Assembly (NCBI GenBank): GCA_035631875.1
Contig: DASQHX010000010.1
Location: forward strand, 1 to 64,000
DNA length: 64,000 nucleotides
Reading direction: 5' to 3'
From: Nitrosopumilaceae archaeon
GTDB taxonomy: Archaea; Thermoproteota; Nitrososphaeria; Nitrososphaerales; Nitrosopumilaceae
The notes under the pieces were generated by a model, which was not told where the DNA came from, ran no database searches, and saw only the letters and a list, made by a program, of their open reading frames with translations. Within the stretch, counting starts at the first letter, position 1. Each line of letters opens with the position of its first letter. This document shows positions 2,165-63,838 of this stretch, in pieces. The position numbers and the translations under genes are program-made.

Positions 2165-3451
2165 ATGATAATAAAAAATTTTAAAGAGCTTGCTACAAAT
2201 CAGGAAAAAAAAGATGCGTTACGTATTATAGAAGCAGGACTAGAAGCTGCATTGCCTGGTGATACGTTAAGAAAAATTGTAAAAAAAGACAGGCTAGTTA
2301 TAGGTAAAAAGACTATATTGCTCTCAAAATATGCTAGAATTTTTGTTGTTGGATTTGGCAAGGCTGCAGATTCTATGGCAAAAGCAGTCTTTTCTCTAGC
2401 CAGAATTAATGGTGGCATTATAGTGATTCCATGTGGTACCCAGTCTGTATTGGTAAATAAAAAATTCAAGATTCTTTATGCTGGCCACCCAGTACCAAAT
2501 AAACAGAGTGTTCATGCAGGAAAACAAATTGTAGAATTTTTAAAAAATAAAAGACCGTCTGATTTTATAATATTTTTAATATCTGGTGGAGGCTCTTCAC
2601 TTGTTTCACTACCTGATGGCATATCACTTTTAGACAAAAAAATTACCACTAGTTTATTATTAAAATCAGGTGCAAACATACAAGAAATAAACTGTATAAG
2701 AAAACATCTCTCAAAAATTAAAGGAGGAAAACTGGCAGAAAGTCTCATATGTGATGCAGTATCGCTTGTAATGTCTGATGTTGTTGGTGATGACCTGTCA
2801 GATATTGCATCAGCGCCTACATATTTTGATAAGACCACCTTCAAAGATGCAGATAAAATATTAACAAAATATGGCCTTAAAAAACACATACCACAAGGTG
2901 TTCTAAAAAGATTAGATCTTGGAATTCATAATAAAATACCAGAGACTCCAAAATCTTCGAAAATAAAGAATCATATCATTGCTACAAACAATGACTGTCT
3001 TGATGTGATGATGCAAAGAGCACGACAGCTTGGATATACTGCAGGTATAATCCACTCTGTATCTGGTGATGTTACACTTGTTGCAAAAAATCTACTGCAA
3101 TCATTTCCAATGAAAAAGCATTCTTGTCTTATTTTTGGTGGTGAGCCTACCGTTAAAGTAATAGGAAATGGAAAGGGAGGAAGAAACCAAGAGCTAGTCC
3201 TATCTATGTTTGGCAAGATTCAAAACAATAGAAAAAATATTGTAATTGCATCGTGTGGCACTGATGGAAAAGATGGAAATACTGATGCAAGTGGTGCAAT
3301 CATGGAAATCTCAAAAGATATTCATGATATACGTAATTTTCTAAAAAACAACAATTCGTACTATTTTTTTAAAAAGCATAAAGGTCTGATATTTACTGGA
3401 CCTACACACACAAATCTTATGGATATTGGTGTATTGTTAAGCAGACAATAG
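2165..3451 (+). CDS. Glycerate 2-kinase (MOFRL family)
   Basis: This 428-residue protein matches the usual length of the glycerate 2-kinase/MOFRL family, which phosphorylates D-glycerate to 2-phosphoglycerate in the cytoplasm. An N-terminal Rossmann-like part contains VVGFGKAADSM and the nucleotide-site loop ISGGGSSL near residue 140. The C-terminal MOFRL domain contains GGRNQELVLS and SCGTDGKDGNTDASGA. The ATG start is preceded by an AT-rich promoter-like stretch. Its 3' end overlaps the convergent gene downstream by 15 bp. In archaea this enzyme feeds glycerate into lower glycolysis; no pathway partner lies next to it. Confidence 0.9.
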   Translation: MIIKNFKELATNQEKKDALRIIEAGLEAALPGDTLRKIVKKDRLVIGKKTILLSKYARIFVVGFGKAADSMAKAVFSLARINGGIIVIPCGTQSVLVNKKFKILYAGHPVPNKQSVHAGKQIVEFLKNKRPSDFIIFLISGGGSSLVSLPDGISLLDKKITTSLLLKSGANIQEINCIRKHLSKIKGGKLAESLICDAVSLVMSDVVGDDLSDIASAPTYFDKTTFKDADKILTKYGLKKHIPQGVLKRLDLGIHNKIPETPKSSKIKNHIIATNNDCLDVMMQRARQLGYTAGIIHSVSGDVTLVAKNLLQSFPMKKHSCLIFGGEPTVKVIGNGKGGRNQELVLSMFGKIQNNRKNIVIASCGTDGKDGNTDASGAIMEISKDIHDIRNFLKNNNSYYFFKKHKGLIFTGPTHTNLMDIGVLLSRQ

Positions 3452-3823
3452 TTTTGTAGCAATGTTTTGTGATGGTTCGATTATTTCAAATTGAATCTGA
3501 ATATTTCGTTGTTCTATTATCTGTTTTATGAAACTAATTCGTGATTCTATTAAATGATCATGATCTTGCTTTTTTCCAGTCAAGTGTTCATGCATTGATT
3601 TTAGATCAAGCATGATCTTTACGGTATCCCCATTTTTTATTATGATTCTACCGATTGCCCAAAAGATCCCAACATGAAGTGCAATGTATTTTGATTGCTC
3701 TTTTGATATTTTATCAAAATAGATCTCAGCATGATCTCGCGTCTGCTCAAACATTGTCTCATCATTTTTGATGACCCATGAGATCATTTTCTCATCACCA
3801 TCAAAATAACAGAGATGATCCAT
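3437..3823 (-). CDS. Conserved-looking hypothetical protein, 128 aa
   Basis: I do not recognise this family. The protein is soluble, with no signal peptide or membrane segment. The N-terminal third is rich in acidic and aromatic residues (MDHLCYFDGDEKM), the middle contains a mildly hydrophobic helix (IALHVGIFWAIGRIII), and a charged HEHLTGKKQDHDHL stretch with several histidines precedes a C-terminal helix. The His cluster could bind metal, but this is speculation. It converges on the glycerate kinase gene with a 15-bp overlap of the 3' ends. Confidence 0.6.
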   Translation of the reverse strand: MDHLCYFDGDEKMISWVIKNDETMFEQTRDHAEIYFDKISKEQSKYIALHVGIFWAIGRIIIKNGDTVKIMLDLKSMHEHLTGKKQDHDHLIESRISFIKQIIEQRNIQIQFEIIEPSQNIATKLLSA

Positions 3824-3899
3824 ATGTCAACCAAAAAGGCGTTGATTGTCTATATATTTTGAATATAGCACTGAATAATAAAAATGAAAACTTGATGGC

Positions 3900-4106
3900 G
3901 TGTTAGAGGCAAACTCTTTCTTCACTAATATGGTAGATGAATTAGTAGAGTTTTCTGAATATGACCCAGAGCTTGCAGAAGGTCTGAAATGGATAGATGG
4001 TGAAGCGCACAAACGTGGTCTGACATTTTATGAGATGGTCTTTCATGTATTGCATAGATATGATATTGATATCAAAGCAAAAGAATGGTTATCTACTAGA
4101 AACTAG
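3900..4106 (+). CDS. Small helical protein, paralogue of the 6.0-kb gene
   Basis: A 68-residue acidic soluble protein of unknown function. The GTG start is preferred over the internal ATG at 3930 because the paralogue begins at the matching place: SFFTNMVDELV here aligns with SFIKLVDEFV there. The pair also shares a GLTFYEM/GITFYDM block and a similar distance to the C terminus. The two copies flank citrate synthase at 2 kb separation. There is no recognisable motif for DNA or metal binding. It converges on the small membrane-protein gene, with only two bases between the stops. Confidence 0.6.
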   Translation: MLEANSFFTNMVDELVEFSEYDPELAEGLKWIDGEAHKRGLTFYEMVFHVLHRYDIDIKAKEWLSTRN

Positions 4107-4108
4107 TT

Positions 4109-4288
4109 TTATGTAATTCCGGAACAAATATCACTTAACAAATTGGGATTGTATTGTCCTGCAGATGTTTTGATATCTGATCTATGAATTACTTTACAAA
4201 TAATGTCAGGAAAGATAAACTCAGTAATAAGAAAAATGCTCAAAAGTAAAACTCCTATCACAATAATGATGCCAATTGGTATTTTCAT
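4109..4288 (-). CDS. 59-aa single-pass membrane microprotein
   Basis: An ATG-started frame of 59 residues begins MKIPIGIIIVIGVLLLSIFL, a clear single transmembrane helix or uncleaved signal anchor. It is followed by a short polar tail with two cysteines (IICKVIH and SDICSGIT). It starts 9 bp downstream of the citrate synthase stop on the same strand, so cotranscription is likely. Function is unknown. Confidence is moderate because the evidence is composition, start codon and operon spacing. Confidence 0.5.
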   Translation of the reverse strand: MKIPIGIIIVIGVLLLSIFLITEFIFPDIICKVIHRSDIKTSAGQYNPNLLSDICSGIT

Positions 4289-4297
4289 TTAAATCAC

Positions 4298-5464
4298 TTA
4301 TTGTTGCCTTTTTTCTAGAGGTACGTATTCGCATCCTGACGGCCCGCAATATTTTCCCACATAGACTGCTTTTGGTCTGTAAAGCATTGGTTTTGGTGCA
4401 GCTTCGGCAAATTTTTCTTCAATGATATGAGCTGTCCATCCTGCAACTCTAGAGATTGCAAAAATTGGCGTATTCAAATCCATTGGAATTTTTAGCATAT
4501 AGTAAGCAGATGCACTGTAAAGATCCACATTTGGAAAAATATCTGATCCTTTTACCTTTTTCATCTCTTCTTCTGTAATGTCTTCAACTTTTTTTGTAAT
4601 TTTATACCAAGGGTCTCCTGTTTTTTCAGATAATCGTCTTGATAATTCTCTGAGCACTTCGGCACGCGGATCAAATGTCTTGTATACAGCATGACCCATT
4701 CCCATTATTTTTTTACCTTGAACAAGTTTTTCTTTAATCCATGGTTCAACGTTCTCTTCAGTCTTGATATCTAAAAGCATCTTCATTACTTGAAAATTAG
4801 CTCCGCCATGCAATTCACCGCTTAGTGCACCAATGGCAGCACTGACTGCAGCATACATGTGAGCACGTGTGGATGCAACTTCTCTTGCGGCAAAAGTAGA
4901 TGCATTAAAACTATGTTCCGCATGTAAAATCAAACAAATGTCAAAAATTCTGGCAAATTCGTTATCTGGTATGTTTCCTGTAAGCATGTAAAGAAAATTA
5001 GCGGCATGGCTAAGATCTTTTGATGGTTGAATGATTTCCTTTCCATTGCGAATTCTGTCCCAGCATGATGTGATTATTGGTAGTTTGGAAATAAGATTAA
5101 TGGCTCTGGCATAATTTGTAGGCCTATCATCTGATTTTTCATTGTCATATGCAGAAAGTATTGCCACAGAAGACTGCAAAACATCCATGGGGTTTGCTGT
5201 TTTTGGCAAATTCTTGAGGTTTTTCTCTAGACCTTCTGGGACTTCACGTGAAGTAACAAGTTTGTCATTAAATTCAGCAAGTACTGCTTTTGACGGAAGA
5301 TCATCATTGAGTAACATGCATGCAGTTTCCTCAAATGTAGATTTTTTGACAAGGTCCAAAATGTCATATCCTCTGTAAATTAGTTTGCCATTTATGCCAT
5401 CAATTGCAGAAATCTTTGTATCAGCTACCTCGATATTGCGAAGACCAATGTTTTTTGTTTGCAC
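4298..5464 (-). CDS. gltA: Citrate synthase
   Basis: A 388-residue citrate synthase of the short archaeal/Gram-positive type, which condenses oxaloacetate with acetyl-CoA. It is complete, from IEVADTKISAIDG with the IYRGYDI block to the C terminus. Expected active-site residues are visible: His219 in GELHGGAN, His258 in MGMGHAVYKTFDPRAE and Asp314 in FPNVDLYS. The 2-methylcitrate synthase subfamily is similar, so minor propionyl-CoA activity cannot be excluded. In Nitrososphaerota this enzyme serves a TCA route used mainly for biosynthesis. A small membrane protein follows immediately downstream. Confidence 0.92.
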   Translation of the reverse strand: MQTKNIGLRNIEVADTKISAIDGINGKLIYRGYDILDLVKKSTFEETACMLLNDDLPSKAVLAEFNDKLVTSREVPEGLEKNLKNLPKTANPMDVLQSSVAILSAYDNEKSDDRPTNYARAINLISKLPIITSCWDRIRNGKEIIQPSKDLSHAANFLYMLTGNIPDNEFARIFDICLILHAEHSFNASTFAAREVASTRAHMYAAVSAAIGALSGELHGGANFQVMKMLLDIKTEENVEPWIKEKLVQGKKIMGMGHAVYKTFDPRAEVLRELSRRLSEKTGDPWYKITKKVEDITEEEMKKVKGSDIFPNVDLYSASAYYMLKIPMDLNTPIFAISRVAGWTAHIIEEKFAEAAPKPMLYRPKAVYVGKYCGPSGCEYVPLEKRQQ

Positions 5465-5555
5465 TAGTATTACTGCAAAAAATACGTATTAAAATTATAC
5501 CATACTAAAACATGGTACAGCGTAACTAAATACAAATTTTAATCCTAAAATTTTC

Positions 5556-53994: not shown

Positions 53995-54570
53995 TTATTT
54001 CTTGAATTTTTTATTTGTAAACCTAGTTAATCCAAGTTTTTTTAGCTCATCTGATTCTTTAAGCACTAAACTATGTTGTTTTTGTTTGTGTTGCTTGAGT
54101 TTTCGCTGTATATCACTAAATTCATTAGCAAGTATTTTTAGAGCATACAGTCCTGCATTTGTTGCCTTGTTTACTCCTACCGTTACAACTGGAGAACCTG
54201 TTGGCATCTCTGATATGGATAATAATGAATCCAATCCTCCAAATGCAGAAAACTTGAAGCGATCCGAATTGCCAGACTTGTCGTTATACACCATTATAGG
54301 TACGCCTATTACCGGAATTATAGTGTGAGACGCAATCATTCCTGGGAGATGAGCTGAACCACCAGCTCCTGCAATTATGACTTTGAATCCGTTTTTTTCT
54401 GCATGTTTCGCATAATCTAACAGTCTTGTTGGAGTTCTATGTGCAGATACTATCTGGTCTTCATGCTTTACCCCAAATTCCTCTAAAACAATAGCTGCTC
54501 CATGCATTATTTTGCTATCTGAACTTGAACCCATAATGATACCAACAAGTGGTTTTTTTGAATAACTCAC
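53995..54570 (-). CDS. purE: N5-carboxyaminoimidazole ribonucleotide mutase
   Basis: A 191-residue PurE; the first 160 residues form the catalytic domain with VGIIMGSSSDSKIMHGA, IVSAHRTPTRLLDYA and IAGAGGSAHLPGMIASHTII. The SSSDS and AHRTP motifs bind the carboxyaminoimidazole ribotide phosphate. A 30-residue basic tail (QRKLKQHKQKQHS and beyond) extends past the usual end. With PurK (58.8 kb) it forms the two-step route from AIR to CAIR. It is away from the main purine operon. Confidence 0.93.
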   Translation of the reverse strand: MSYSKKPLVGIIMGSSSDSKIMHGAAIVLEEFGVKHEDQIVSAHRTPTRLLDYAKHAEKNGFKVIIAGAGGSAHLPGMIASHTIIPVIGVPIMVYNDKSGNSDRFKFSAFGGLDSLLSISEMPTGSPVVTVGVNKATNAGLYALKILANEFSDIQRKLKQHKQKQHSLVLKESDELKKLGLTRFTNKKFKK

Positions 54571-54617
54571 AAGATCATTCTACTTTGAATTTTAATAAAC
54601 CCAGCGAATTGGAATTT

Positions 54618-54646
54618 GATATATTTTGATAATTAAAACATATATC
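54618..54646. promoter_or_regulatory. Imperfect palindrome in the purE divergent promoter region
   Basis: GATATAT (54618-54624) and ATATATC (54640-54646) form the outer arms and TTTTGATAATTAAAA the centre of an imperfect 29-bp palindrome. Each arm offers a TATA-like sequence, so it may be the shared promoter of purE and the SRPBCC gene rather than a repressor site. Confidence 0.35.
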
Positions 54647-54668
54647 ATGTAAGCACATACTGTTACGC

Positions 54669-55148
54669 ATGACTGAAATAAAAACGGCTGTTGAGATTAA
54701 TGCTTCTGTAGATAAGGTATGGGAAGTTGTATCTGATCTTGATAAAGATCCAAAATTTTGGACCTCTATTACTTCGATAAGGAATATTTCTCATGAGAGT
54801 AACCAAGTAAAACGTGAGGTCACACTTGCCAAAACCAACAAGTGCCTGCAGACAATCACTCTATATCCCAAAGAAAAAGTACACACAGAATGGACAAAAG
54901 GAATAATCAAGGGCACCAAAGATATTATCCTTATACCAAGAGGCAGTGGTACATACCTTGAATCTGTTTTAGATTATAAATTTACAGGAATGGCAGGTTT
55001 CCTGTCTGGAAAAATTACGAAAGATGTAACAATAGAAACTCAAAGAGCAGTTGAATTCATAAAAGAAAAAGCAGAAGGTGTTGATACTAGTTTAAACATG
55101 GAAGAAAGGAAACATTGGGCAGACATGTACGATGATAAAGAAAAGTAA
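54669..55148 (+). CDS. SRPBCC/START-like family protein
   Basis: A 159-residue protein of the polyketide-cyclase/SRPBCC fold: IKTAVEINASVDKVWEVVSD, DKDPKFWTSITSIRNIS and a long C-terminal helix TIETQRAVEFIKEKAEG. Such proteins bind hydrophobic ligands in a helix-grip cavity. The last 20 residues (NMEERKHWADMYDDKEK) are acidic and outside the fold. No ligand can be named. It is divergent from purE. Confidence 0.8.
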   Translation: MTEIKTAVEINASVDKVWEVVSDLDKDPKFWTSITSIRNISHESNQVKREVTLAKTNKCLQTITLYPKEKVHTEWTKGIIKGTKDIILIPRGSGTYLESVLDYKFTGMAGFLSGKITKDVTIETQRAVEFIKEKAEGVDTSLNMEERKHWADMYDDKEK

Positions 55149-55213
55149 TCTTAATTAAATTAACAAATTTCAAACTTTTAAATTATCATAAAAAGGAAAA
55201 ACAAGTATTATCT

Positions 55214-55780
55214 ATGCAACAAAATCCTCTTGAAGTAAGACGAGCATTTGGACTTCTATTTATTGGTGTCTCAATAGCTGTTGGTGTTGCATCTATCCTA
55301 AGTGAAATTGTTTTTGTAAATAAAACTGCAACCTTTTATTATGGAATAATATGGTTTGGTAGTTTTGGAATTACGTTTGGGATAATTTTTGGCAGGTTTC
55401 GTAAAATAATTTCATCAATTAAAGGAAGAATGAAAAATAGTGTAAAATGGTCAAGAAATATCAAAGCTGTAAACGGCGTGTGTTGGGCAGCGCCATTTGC
55501 TGCAATAGGTGCAGTTCCAAGTTTTTATCAATATTTGATATTACTAGGAATAGGTTTGGGAAATCTCTCGACTTATTTGTTTATGAAAAAATATAGTGGA
55601 TTGGATAACCGTGAACAAATAATTGTTGCAATAATATCACTTGTTGCTATTCCTATTGCAATAGTAATTGATAGCTCTGGATTCATTACAAGTCAAACTA
55701 TTGCTGTGATAACATCTAGAATTTTAATTGCAATTGCATATGGTGCAGGTGGAATTTATGCATTAACTACAAAAAAATAA
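55214..55780 (+). CDS. Multi-pass membrane protein, 188 aa
   Basis: At least five or six hydrophobic segments are present: GLLFIGVSIAVGVASILSEI, FYYGIIWFGSFGITFGIIFG, AAPFAAIGAVPSFYQYLILL, GLGNLSTYLF, IIVAIISLVAIPIAIVI and VITSRILIAIAYGAGGIYAL. A basic cytoplasmic loop (KIISSIKGRMKNSVKWSRN) lies between helices 2 and 3. No transporter signature is recognised. It follows the SRPBCC gene with a 65-bp gap and ends 15 bp before the convergent surface-protein gene. Confidence 0.65.
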   Translation: MQQNPLEVRRAFGLLFIGVSIAVGVASILSEIVFVNKTATFYYGIIWFGSFGITFGIIFGRFRKIISSIKGRMKNSVKWSRNIKAVNGVCWAAPFAAIGAVPSFYQYLILLGIGLGNLSTYLFMKKYSGLDNREQIIVAIISLVAIPIAIVIDSSGFITSQTIAVITSRILIAIAYGAGGIYALTTKK

Positions 55781-55795
55781 TATATGCAAAAAATT

Positions 55796-58723
55796 CTATT
55801 GAGAGCTTCTCGTATCTGTGACCTTTTCAGGAGGCCCTACTTTGTAAAATGTATTAGGAAATGCTTGATTGTTGTATTCTGTAGCAATCCATGAAGCAGA
55901 TCGAGCAGTAGTCGAGTATCGGAATTCGTCTAGACTTCCTTTAAAAAATTCTGCTAGTGTATTGGCGTTATTAGTAGAAGTAGAAGCACCTACATAAAGA
56001 GAATTAGGCAAACCACTTGGGGGAACAGTATTTGAGGAGGTTTGTCTTACACCATCAACATACCATATGTTTGTCGTTCCATTGTAAGTATAAACAGCAT
56101 AATGCCAACTGTTCGCCAAAGGTATGGGGGTTTTTGTCAGCATGTTTGTTGTACCGCTTGGCGAGAATTTCCATGCATCCATACTAGTTGTTGTCTGAAA
56201 ACCCGTTCTGAAGGCAGTTGACGTACTAGCTGATGGATATGGTGTAACATCTTGCTGTAAGGAAGAGAAGTCTTCTTTTGCAACTGGTGTGGGAGCGTTA
56301 TACCAAATTGATACTGTTTTTGGATGATTAAGTAAAGGCATTCCAGTAAGAGTAGTGTTTTGAACGAAAAGTTGATTTACTCCATTAAGAGTTGTACCTC
56401 CGCCAATTTTCCCTAAAACTTGTCCACAATTGGGTAGATTGACAGGAGAGAAAAAATTCTTGTTAGATGTACTGTCTAGAACTGTTGTGTCACCGCTCGA
56501 AGTGTCAGATTTTATCTCTACTGCTGCGTCCACCCATGTATCAGAAGATGAGGTGTGGACATGCCATTGAAATGTTGTAGATATGCATGTTGTTGATGGA
56601 AAAGCCACACTTGACGCAACTGTATCATGGTTAATATCTATTGGGTGCGTGAGCCAAGTTTCAAACTCTGTGGGATTTTCTAGATCCCATGGAGGATGAT
56701 TGAAACCACAACTAGTACCGCACTGGGCGCCATATCCTACTGCTGCTTGATCCATAAGTAAGCTATTTGGCCAAAGGTTAGTCACGCTAATTGAAACAGT
56801 TTGGCTTGTACCAGTAACTGCAGGTTCAAGAGGAGCCACTGGAGTGGTTTGATCTACTCCATATATGGAATATGCTACTAATGACATGTAATTATTACCG
56901 CCAGTAGTAGTCCCATGAATATCGGCAGTTCCAGTAGGAGGATTTAGTAAATACCAAAACTCGGTATCTACGTTACCAAGTACGTGTGCTTGTAGTTGTG
57001 TTAGCGCTTGATTACCGTAAGTGATGGAATTAAAGGTTGTAGGGTGATCAGCAGATGCTGTAACTAATAACAGTCTATCTGTATGACTTCCGACAGGAAA
57101 ATTCTTTATGTTTTGATATGATTGTGCAGTTGAATTTGTAAAATTAAATTGCATAAGTTCTAAGGATGGAGGAGTACCGACAGACGATGGGGTATTTGCA
57201 AAATGCCAAACACCTGCATAAGTTGGATCCCATGTACTTGTAATATTTTGTTGATTTGTTGCAGCAGTATTGTTATAATACATGTAAATAACATTGTTAG
57301 GTGAATTGTAAATATTTGGGACTTGAACCCACGCTGTTAATGAACCTGTAGTTGTGGTATAGTTTTCAATTTCATGGTCTAATTTTGTTTTTCCATCACA
57401 TGCCGTAAATAAAACGTCATATCTATTGCTCTTGGCATAATTTTTCAGATCAGTATCTGTTGTTTCATTTATTAAAAGAGGAAAGTTGTAGAAAGCACTA
57501 GATTTTATCTCTACTGCAACTGATGCATAATTTTGACTACTGCCACCCCAGTTCCACGTCATCGTTTTTGTTGTTGGCAAATAAGTCATATTATAACTAC
57601 TTCCTCCAGTGAATGTAGTACCAGAAATTGGTTTGTTCCATTCAAGGGTTTGCCCAATATTTTGTATAAGAGTATTACCAGTTGGTACCGCAATAGAATC
57701 TATTACCCAACTGTTAATACTTGTTGTATTTGCCTTCACCAAACCACTATTTCCAGAACCGGTTCTATAAGCACTAAAAGAAATTGGGTATGTCTGATCA
57801 ACTCCAAAAAATGAATATGCGCCAAGTTCCACATTTGCCGTACCTGTCATTGTCACTGCAATATTTGCACTACCTGTTGGAGGATTTACCAAATACCAAA
57901 TTTCAGAATCGACAGTATTGGTTGTTCCGTTTGCTCTTGTTAGAGATATTCCAGAATAAGTTAATGATTGCACAGTTCCAGTATTAGATTCAATACCAAC
58001 TAGTAATAGTCTATTTGAACCTGAACCAACAACAAAATTAGGAAGAGTATATGATGATGATCCTGATCCTGTGGTGTTTTTCACATTATCTAATAGAATT
58101 GGGGTGGGATTACCAGCTATTTGCGTATAGTTCAAAGTTATTCTTTTACGAAATTGCCAGTGATTGTCATACCAACCAACATTTGGTGCGACTTGAGTTT
58201 TAATTACAGTGCCTCGTGCAGTAGTTATTGAAATTGTAACTGGATCGGTAAAACACGTGTAAGGAATTCCAGTTGTGAAAGATCGTTGAGGAAGAATTAT
58301 TGAACTAGCACTTTGGGTAGACATTGAATTAATTTTTGAATTACTAGGTATATGATAGACAGGTATGGTAGTTAAACTCTCAGCATTTGTTATTGAATTG
58401 GAGAGTGCACCAGTTACATTTAAAGTCGGACTATCAATTTCTATTTTTGTAACATTAATTGGTACCTGACCTGTATTTGTTAAAGTAAAATTAAATTGTT
58501 GTGTAGAGGAATGATAAACAGAATTCTCTATTGATAGTGATTCTTGATTTTTACTTATTGCGGCTGTATTTGTAAATGTTTCAACTAAAATGGTTTTGAA
58601 TAAAGTAAAATTCTGCGTACTTAAAACAAGGCCTATTGTGCCCAAGATGGCTACAACGGTAAGCATTATCATTGCAGTCATAATTGTACCTAGACCTAGT
58701 CTATGACCTGCATGTATCATCAT
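55796..58723 (-). CDS. Giant pilin-like surface protein: DUF2341 and LamG domains with inserted modules
   Basis: The 975-residue product starts with a type IV pilin-like N terminus (GLGTIMTAMIMLTVVAILGT), anchoring it in or at the membrane. Residues ~60-180 are a beta domain. A DUF2341-like domain begins at ~184 (WYDNHWQFRKRITLNYTQIA), stops at ~205, and resumes at ~411 with YNFPLLINETTDTDLKNYAK. A LamG-like domain begins at ~503 (AGVWHFANTPS) and resumes at ~747 with VLDSTSNKNFFSPVNLPN, ending with SLDEFRYSTTARSASWIATE. The two inserts resemble each other (NRLLLVGIESN / DRLLLVTASAD, EIWYLVNPPTG / EFWYLLNPPTG, both ending VEIKS). The role is probably carbohydrate or surface binding. Confidence 0.8.
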   Translation of the reverse strand: MMIHAGHRLGLGTIMTAMIMLTVVAILGTIGLVLSTQNFTLFKTILVETFTNTAAISKNQESLSIENSVYHSSTQQFNFTLTNTGQVPINVTKIEIDSPTLNVTGALSNSITNAESLTTIPVYHIPSNSKINSMSTQSASSIILPQRSFTTGIPYTCFTDPVTISITTARGTVIKTQVAPNVGWYDNHWQFRKRITLNYTQIAGNPTPILLDNVKNTTGSGSSSYTLPNFVVGSGSNRLLLVGIESNTGTVQSLTYSGISLTRANGTTNTVDSEIWYLVNPPTGSANIAVTMTGTANVELGAYSFFGVDQTYPISFSAYRTGSGNSGLVKANTTSINSWVIDSIAVPTGNTLIQNIGQTLEWNKPISGTTFTGGSSYNMTYLPTTKTMTWNWGGSSQNYASVAVEIKSSAFYNFPLLINETTDTDLKNYAKSNRYDVLFTACDGKTKLDHEIENYTTTTGSLTAWVQVPNIYNSPNNVIYMYYNNTAATNQQNITSTWDPTYAGVWHFANTPSSVGTPPSLELMQFNFTNSTAQSYQNIKNFPVGSHTDRLLLVTASADHPTTFNSITYGNQALTQLQAHVLGNVDTEFWYLLNPPTGTADIHGTTTGGNNYMSLVAYSIYGVDQTTPVAPLEPAVTGTSQTVSISVTNLWPNSLLMDQAAVGYGAQCGTSCGFNHPPWDLENPTEFETWLTHPIDINHDTVASSVAFPSTTCISTTFQWHVHTSSSDTWVDAAVEIKSDTSSGDTTVLDSTSNKNFFSPVNLPNCGQVLGKIGGGTTLNGVNQLFVQNTTLTGMPLLNHPKTVSIWYNAPTPVAKEDFSSLQQDVTPYPSASTSTAFRTGFQTTTSMDAWKFSPSGTTNMLTKTPIPLANSWHYAVYTYNGTTNIWYVDGVRQTSSNTVPPSGLPNSLYVGASTSTNNANTLAEFFKGSLDEFRYSTTARSASWIATEYNNQAFPNTFYKVGPPEKVTDTRSSQ

Positions 58724-58795
58724 ACTTCAAATTCACATTAAACTGGTTATTATTGACAGTATGTAGTAAAATAGAACAGACTTGATAAATGGACT

Positions 58796-59950
58796 TTATT
58801 GATTTTGTTTATGGAATTTTATGAGATTTCTTACCTCTCCGGCTTTTTTGATTAATGAATCAATGTCTTTTGTATTTTTCTCATCCACCAAATTAAAGTG
58901 CCCCATCTTTCTTTGAGGTTTTACTTCATCTTTTTGATACATCTTTAGGTATACTCCATCTTCTGGTTTGAGTGTGATTGGTTCGTATCTACCTTGAAAG
59001 TCCTTTGGTCCCAAAATATTGCACATTACTGTATAGTGCAACAAATCTGTTTTTCCAAGTTCAAGTCCAAGTATTGCTCTGAGATGTTGTTCAAACTGTG
59101 ATGTCACACTAGATTGCAGTGTATGGTGACCAGAGTTGTGTACTCGTGGAGCTATCTCATTTATGAGTACTTTGTCATCTAGAGTTACAAACATCTCTAT
59201 TCCAAAAACTCCTGCACCATGAAGTACCTCCATTGTTTTTCTGGCAATTTTTTCAGCTTCTTCTGAAATTTTTTTACTTACTCTGGCTGGTGCAATTGTC
59301 ATTTTGAGAATGTTATTTTCATGAATGTTTTCTACAAGTGGATATGTGGCAATTTCGCCTTTTGTGCTTCGTGCAGCTATGACTGATACCTCCATTTGAA
59401 AATTGACTATTTTTTCAAGCATCATTGATCTATCTTTGAATTGTTCATATGCAGGAATTATTTGACTGGGATTTTCTATTCTAAAATTTCCTCTGCCATC
59501 ATATGCATCTTTTCTTGCCTTGAGTATTGCAGGATATTCAAACAATGTTATTTTTTCTTCAAGTTCTGGTAAAGACTCTATTATGGTGAAATCAGATACA
59601 GGAAGTCCATTTTCACGCATGAATTTTTTTTGCAAGTATTTGTCTTGAATTATTTTTAGCGTAGAAGGTGACGGGTTTATTGTTATATCATTATTTAATG
59701 ACTCTAATACTTCACTATCTCCTGATTCTATTTCATATGTTATGATATCAGATTGTAATGATAACTCTACAATTGCATTTTTATTTTTAAAGTCTGCTAC
59801 AATTTGCTTTGCTCCAACTTTTGATGCCGGACAATTCTTTGTAGGATCTAAAACTATGACATCAGAAACGTGCCCAGGCATTTTTTTTGCAGCTTCGGTT
59901 AGCATCATGCCAAGCTGACCGCCACCTATTATTCCTAGAACTTTGGCCAT
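58796..59950 (-). CDS. purK: 5-(carboxyamino)imidazole ribonucleotide synthase
   Basis: An ATP-grasp enzyme of about 384 residues. The ATG that gives MAKVLGIIGGGQLGMMLTEA is the expected start; an upstream ATG adds six residues. Family blocks are ILKARKDAYDGRGNFRI, EVSVIAARSTKGEIATYPL, and NEIAPRVHNSGHHTLQSSVT. It makes N5-CAIR from AIR, ATP and bicarbonate for PurE. It is encoded 4.2 kb from purE, with unrelated surface and lipid-binding genes between. Confidence 0.93.
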   Translation of the reverse strand: MAKVLGIIGGGQLGMMLTEAAKKMPGHVSDVIVLDPTKNCPASKVGAKQIVADFKNKNAIVELSLQSDIITYEIESGDSEVLESLNNDITINPSPSTLKIIQDKYLQKKFMRENGLPVSDFTIIESLPELEEKITLFEYPAILKARKDAYDGRGNFRIENPSQIIPAYEQFKDRSMMLEKIVNFQMEVSVIAARSTKGEIATYPLVENIHENNILKMTIAPARVSKKISEEAEKIARKTMEVLHGAGVFGIEMFVTLDDKVLINEIAPRVHNSGHHTLQSSVTSQFEQHLRAILGLELGKTDLLHYTVMCNILGPKDFQGRYEPITLKPEDGVYLKMYQKDEVKPQRKMGHFNLVDEKNTKDIDSLIKKAGEVRNLIKFHKQNQ

Positions 59951-60106
59951 CAAAATGACTCCTTTCATGTTTTAAAAATAGTTACCTGTAGACAACAATT
60001 CTATTCTTATACGATTGTATTGTATAGTTTTTCCCAATTGTGGGAAATGTTATTTCATAAATCTCACTAGGCTTTAAATACGATTTTATGGAATTTTTTT
60101 ATTATA

Positions 60107-63034: not shown

Positions 63035-63838
63035 CTATTTCACTGACCAAACAGTATCAGTACCATTATTTCCGAAAACTCCATTTTGTAGGTTAGCGGT
63101 ACATGTTACATGATTGGCTACATTGGTTGACGAATTGGTTATAGCGTATACGTATTTAAAAAAAGCCGTACCCCCACTTTGCAAATAAGGATATGAAGGT
63201 GGCAAGGGTCCAGATTTTGCTGTGTAAGAGTCTACACCAAATGCCCTGCATGAAAAATTTGGTTGCAGATTTGTTAACAGATTGCTACTTGTCATATTAT
63301 TTACAATCACAAAAAGGAATGTTGCATTATTACCAGTACGTACTGAACTTGGAACTGCTTCAAGTTGTAACCAAAGAGGTTTTACTCCAGGAGAACCCAT
63401 TGAAAATTGCATTGAATTTCCTCTACTTGTTATTAATTTCAAATTATATGAATAAAGTGGGTTTGCCCCTACGGGCATGCTCAGGCCTATGTTTTTTAGA
63501 ATTGAGCCTGGAGAGACAATACAATTATGACAATTATAGCTATTAGTCCAATCAACAACATTTGTAGTTGTATTTTGTACCCACATTCTTGTTATGTTTA
63601 TTGGAAGACTTCCACTGTTTGAAATAGCAACATTGAACCTTCCGTTAGTAATTTGGACACTGTATATGTCAAATTTTTCTTTACCTGTATCAATCATCAT
63701 TTGATTTTTTGCTAAAACTGATTGGTTAAAGCTATCTAAAACATTTAGACTAAATGTTACATATCCAACAGTAGTTACAATTGCAATTATTGCAAAAACC
63801 ATACCTACTACACTACTTAAGCCTCTTCTTGATTTCAT
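63035..63838 (-). CDS. Type IV pilin-like protein
   Basis: The N terminus is an archaeal class III (prepilin) signal: MKSRRGLSSVVGMVFAIIAI followed by VTTVGYVTFSLN. Cleavage would be after the RRG or nearby residues. The rest, about 230 residues, is beta-rich with VQITNGRFNVAISNSGSLPI and a later NATFLFVIVNNMTS, resembling archaeal pilin-like Ig domains. Two cysteines in NCHNCIVSPG and another pair (SCRAFG, TCTANL) may form disulfides. It overlaps the upstream gene by 4 bp. Confidence 0.78.
   Translation of the reverse strand: MKSRRGLSSVVGMVFAIIAIVTTVGYVTFSLNVLDSFNQSVLAKNQMMIDTGKEKFDIYSVQITNGRFNVAISNSGSLPINITRMWVQNTTTNVVDWTNSYNCHNCIVSPGSILKNIGLSMPVGANPLYSYNLKLITSRGNSMQFSMGSPGVKPLWLQLEAVPSSVRTGNNATFLFVIVNNMTSSNLLTNLQPNFSCRAFGVDSYTAKSGPLPPSYPYLQSGGTAFFKYVYAITNSSTNVANHVTCTANLQNGVFGNNGTDTVWSVK

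Follow-up and report, generated by a model that had tools for sequence, protein, structure and literature searches.

Proteins in which a DUF2341 domain (PF10102) is joined to a Concanavalin A-like LamG_3 domain (PF13385) as one fused unit are the closest described relatives of the protein reported here, which keeps the same domain order. A likeness to PilY tip adhesins has been noted for DUF2341 proteins encoded in archaeal pilus loci (PMC4858521), and a transformation screen in Methanococcus yielded a hit in a DUF2341 gene next to the epd pilin genes (PMC10133366). Natural insertions of one domain within another are widespread, with insertion sites distributed bimodally along the parent domain (PMC12328240).

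The protein we describe shares features with each of these systems and departs from each. It carries an insert of 206–235 aa in each of its two host domains, whereas the largest insertion found anywhere in 38 uninterrupted hosts was 11 aa. As with DUF2341 proteins from type IV pilus loci in archaea, it combines DUF2341 with a pilin-like N-terminus, but its gene adjoins purK, lies near purE and belongs to no recognised pilus operon. As in natural nested domains, one domain is inserted into another; nested domains being already known, what is unusual here is that the same insert family (the plug) occurs in two adjacent but different parents in one chain, with a series of occupied and apparently empty sites among relatives and evidence that a plug has been replaced in place between sister species. 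The inserted module itself resembles a domain of phage minor tail proteins (phrog_2106 and phrog_553; mycobacteriophage, Gordonia phage), where it is terminal or tandem; in the protein described here, from an archaeal cellular genome, it is nested.

The gene occupies positions 55796–58723 of the minus strand (ATG start at 58723, stop codon included) of the window, by which we mean the whole 64,000-nucleotide stretch analysed here, positions 1–64,000 of contig DASQHX010000010.1 in assembly GCA_035631875.1 from a Nitrosopumilaceae archaeon, a soil archaeon akin to the ammonia oxidizers. Orthologs were recovered from two genomes of another genus (G233 and G234) and, at full length and 80% identity, from G002, which together with G003 belongs to the same genus as the window species (own genome, G000). 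The comparison genomes are draft assemblies; in G003 a contig ends at the border of slot 1, and in G234 the contigs end within slot 2. G002 shares the purE-side genes with the window, and G233 shares the purK-side neighbourhood. Three genes separate purE from purK (window 53995–59968): the one described here, one for a putative membrane protein and one whose product is polyketide-cyclase-like (SRPBCC-type).

Read from the N-terminus on the minus strand, residues 1–187 (58163–58723) form a pilin-like hydrophobic helix and a small beta region, as judged from the predicted model and N-terminal similarity. Residues 188–205 (58109–58162) carry the upstream half of the DUF2341 unit, its first strand (WQFRKRITLNYTQIAGN), which aligns with the W..YxKxITI..TKV strand of insert-free hosts. 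This host segment ends with NYTQIAGN at residue 205 and resumes with YNFPLLINETTD at residue 412, leaving a slot 1 insert of 206 aa (residues 206–411, 57491–58108; module HMM 208–412). Residues 412–513 (57185–57490), assigned from Pfam and host alignment, hold the remainder of the DUF2341 unit, with the PF10102 envelope at 57418–57230 (residues 436–498; 37.9 bits against a gathering cut-off of 23.4), followed by the first LamG strand (AGVWHF). LamG is then interrupted after AGVWHFANTPS (residue 513) and resumes with LDSTSNKNFFSPVN at residue 749, so that the slot 2 insert spans 235 aa (residues 514–748, 56480–57184; module HMM 518–743). The rest of LamG fills residues 749–975 (55799–56479), again from Pfam and host alignment, with the PF13385 envelope at 56329–55883 (residues 799–947; 45.7 bits against a cut-off of 27.6). 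Every motif quoted in the original prediction was found where it had been placed, including both interruptions.

The two inserts are homologous, as had been proposed from shared motifs: BLASTP aligned them with E 1e-21 at 34% identity, and their local alignment score is 219, whereas none of 2000 shuffles scored above 76 and insert against host reached only 40–54. Their DNA has drifted apart: the best-matching stretch is 54 nt long at 76%.

Comparison with insert-free relatives revealed that both host domains are split. In ten insert-free DUF2341-LamG proteins from related archaea (G137, G009, G022, G109, G164, G126, G211 and G111) and 24 from IMG/VR viral contigs there is no break at either site: the W..RxITI..TKV strand runs on to NFPVLI, and VWHL to DSTSN, and these junctions are precisely the points that the inserts occupy. 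Among the host ORFs surveyed, large inserts were confined to HMM states ~19–23 and ~131–137. Each plug lies directly after the first beta strand of its host domain. These alignments support the view that one module family has become nested in two different host domains of the same protein.

The module, approximately 205 aa long, drew no match in Pfam, NCBIfam or PDB sequence searches with either insert. AlphaFold predicted an all-beta fold for copy 1 (pLDDT 91.9, pTM 0.90, from an alignment with 46 relatives), and this model matched many phage minor tail proteins among predicted viral structures over its full length (TM 0.75–0.88, E down to 7e-15). At the sequence level, 19 of the 46 module members matched phrog_2106 (‘minor tail protein’); window copy 1 had no PHROG match at 0.01. 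PRD1-type coat proteins and PA5104 were considered as relatives and set aside, as Foldseek against PDB gave top TM values of only 0.27–0.34. Searches of viral contigs with module and window host queries returned no match by their own patterns, and tblastn of the protein and the module against named phages and plasmids likewise found none. On one viral contig (L172, IMGVR_UViG_3300037308_000134), the module is N-terminal in two adjacent, phage-structural-looking ORFs (1729–2862 and 2834–5551); one of the two additionally encodes an uninterrupted DUF2341-LamG unit. A phylum-wide sample of 300 genomes contained the module in 12, and named assemblies of Thaumarchaeota and Nitrosotalea contributed 38 loci, mostly as a tandem or terminal domain (including many Nitrosotalea-like proteins) and often beside what we take, by eye, to be Fn3-like domains. 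It is free-standing in some 60 other ORFs, two of them (C11, C5) in the genome that the window comes from. Common to Nitrosotalea-type archaea and phage tails and so far unannotated, it would deserve a family entry.

Among the 68 module ORFs collected, nesting in these hosts is limited to a single ortholog group, in which both slots are filled in the window species, G002, G233 and G234, and thus across two genera. The G234 ortholog is spread over two contigs that break inside slot 2 (C104 end and C36 start; L072, L073) and overlap by 54 nt with three mismatches; the break could possibly stem from slot 2 variation within the population. In G003, slot 2 is filled and slot 1 is apparently empty, because the contig starts VTGQLYNF, the host running directly into the DUF2341 core; this reading draws on the four residues VTGQ at the contig end. 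A second G003 contig, C45, was considered as the missing N-terminal half and proved to be a different pilin-like gene (L084, 478–1989), whose pilin-like N-terminus is followed by what looks by eye like a fibro-slime/PA14-like domain.

The original prediction offered two origins for the paired inserts: intragenic duplication or a mobile module. Under the first, one copy would have been nested initially and then duplicated into the other loop within the gene, giving all nested copies a common nested ancestor; we regard this as possible, though we lean against it, the alternative being that each copy was captured separately. The plugs occupy equivalent positions in their hosts, the slot 2 copy of G233 falls beside the slot 1 clade (94/86) and a tree in which all eight nested copies form one clade is compatible with the data (AU p 0.18; slot 2 copies as one clade, p 0.08), a weak test because the slot 2 branches are very long. 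In the best tree, the slot 1 copies of both genera form one clade (97/82). Against duplication, that tree scatters the long-branched slot 2 copies, with those of the window species and G002, and that of G003, away from slot 1; the low identity of the two inserts and their short residual DNA similarity argue in the same direction.

Slot 2 differs sharply between the window species and G002. The N-terminus, slot 1, DUF2341 and LamG regions share 83–92% amino acid identity, against 54% for slot 2, and the localised divergence extends to silent sites. At codons for unchanged residues, 52 of 119 (44%) differ silently in slot 2, against 24/150, 28/194, 21/90 and 38/195 (14–23%) in the regions outside it (Fisher p 4e-9 versus the rest); a stricter count, restricted to residues flanked by identical residues, gave 14/36 in slot 2 versus 80/482 elsewhere (p 0.0025). 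A two-breakpoint likelihood fit delimited a divergent segment at residues 511–733 (56525–57193, minus strand) with an lnL gain of 122, the ranges within 2 lnL being 510–511 for the start and 731–746 for the end; nucleotide divergence is 38% inside the segment and 10.5% outside. We infer recombination as the cause: the slot 2 plug was probably replaced, in the window species or its sister, by exchange near the module borders. As the slot 2 copies of the two species group together in the tree (100/99), the incoming plug probably derived from a different slot 2 allele and not from a free-standing copy.

Rapid or diversifying evolution of a plug that stayed in place, as opposed to replacement, is in our estimation an unlikely source of this pattern. 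Slot 2 is also somewhat faster between G233 and G234 (81–86% identity versus 89–93% elsewhere, with no synonymous excess in slot 2), its dN/dS of 0.41 is close to that of the N-terminal region, and faster evolution could contribute part of the excess seen between the window species and G002. However, silent changes at unchanged residues are two to three times higher in slot 2 and only there, the breakpoints are sharp and lie near the module borders, and selection on the protein alone should not raise silent divergence.

Less plausible still, and in our view very improbable, is an ordinary multidomain protein in which the modules sit between domains and split neither host. The Pfam envelopes of DUF2341 and LamG_3 both begin downstream of the slots, and a Pfam-only view would therefore call both inserts interdomain; the split becomes visible only against full-length relatives. 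There, uninterrupted hosts include the strand preceding slot 1 in their conserved unit and have only a short loop at that point, and the strand preceding slot 2 belongs to LamG, because LamG-only domains without DUF2341 also carry it (for example L019, NLVAWWLFDE..DSSDNKNSG). The predicted full-chain model is of medium confidence (mean pLDDT 64), with confident host segments at residues 188–200, 411–510 and much of 750–970; it was folded from alignment A6, since an alignment mixed with free modules displaced the first host strand. Viral models searched by Foldseek with the whole chain returned uninformative multidomain matches with low TM.

A self-mobile protein element, intein-like or transposon-borne and inserted in frame, is scarcely credible: the module does recur in many proteins of these genomes, but repeats at the insert borders do not exceed shuffle expectation, Pfam found no intein, endonuclease or transposase match among the inserts and most module copies are plain tandem or terminal domains. 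The mobile-module proposal is thus supported if mobility means domain shuffling and exchange in place, given the free-standing copies and the probable slot 2 replacement; nothing points to an element that moves itself.

The suggestion that the modules entered tolerant loops is supported by slot 2, which also accepts an unrelated domain. Outside the ortholog group, the only large inserts were found in two viral-contig proteins from IMG/VR, L148 (plus strand, from 3629, 747 aa) and L171 (plus strand, from 3866, 670 aa), each with a domain of approximately 300 aa at the same LamG loop. The best matches of these inserts are to glycosyl hydrolase family 43 (E 4e-6 and 6e-7, below the Pfam cut-off), and by analogy with that family the domain would be a beta-propeller. 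Slot 2 can be considered a recurrent insertion site, because the domain held there by L148 and L171 is unrelated to the module. Methanofastidiosa virus proteins that matched the L171 insert were rejected as further nested cases, having no detectable DUF2341-LamG host. A more ambitious reading, which we hold to be rather doubtful, makes slot 2 a plug-and-socket site: archaea and viruses would fill one LamG loop with different whole binding modules, such as beta modules of the phage-tail type or GH43-like domains, exchanged by recombination at the borders, as a cassette that varies surface recognition on an unchanged adhesin scaffold.

The account that we favour, and judge quite probable, is of a DUF2341-LamG adhesin with one module nested twice and a slot 2 plug exchangeable by recombination. 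On this account, a surface protein of the DUF2341-LamG type, probably a pilin-anchored adhesin, bears two copies of the all-beta module. Each sits in the loop that follows strand one of its own host domain, and the host would fold around the plug. The module is a shuffled domain, free-standing in this clade and shared structurally with phage minor tail proteins, and both host loops tolerate insertion. The slot 1 copies represent one lineage across two genera. In the window species or its sister, a divergent slot 2 allele would have taken the place of the earlier slot 2 content, by recombination close to the borders of the module. The protein provides a natural case in which one domain is accepted by two hosts in one chain. 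Some relatives have empty sites and others a site filled differently, and two sister species differ essentially in one plug, which makes insertion tolerance and module exchange directly testable.

As for function, a pilin-anchored adhesin whose two plugs project, perhaps as binding tips, is the most likely role, with surface location and adhesion both putative. The predicted full-chain model has a long N-terminal helix, and residues 1–187, in which Pfam found no family above cut-off, likely serve as a membrane or pilus anchor. Several further ORFs, in this genome and in related ones, have similar N-termini (23–41% identity). Pilin-anchored surface proteins may cluster around the window region, and pilin-like N-termini were also seen in ORFs at window positions 63035–63838 (minus strand) and G000:C10:78624-79468.
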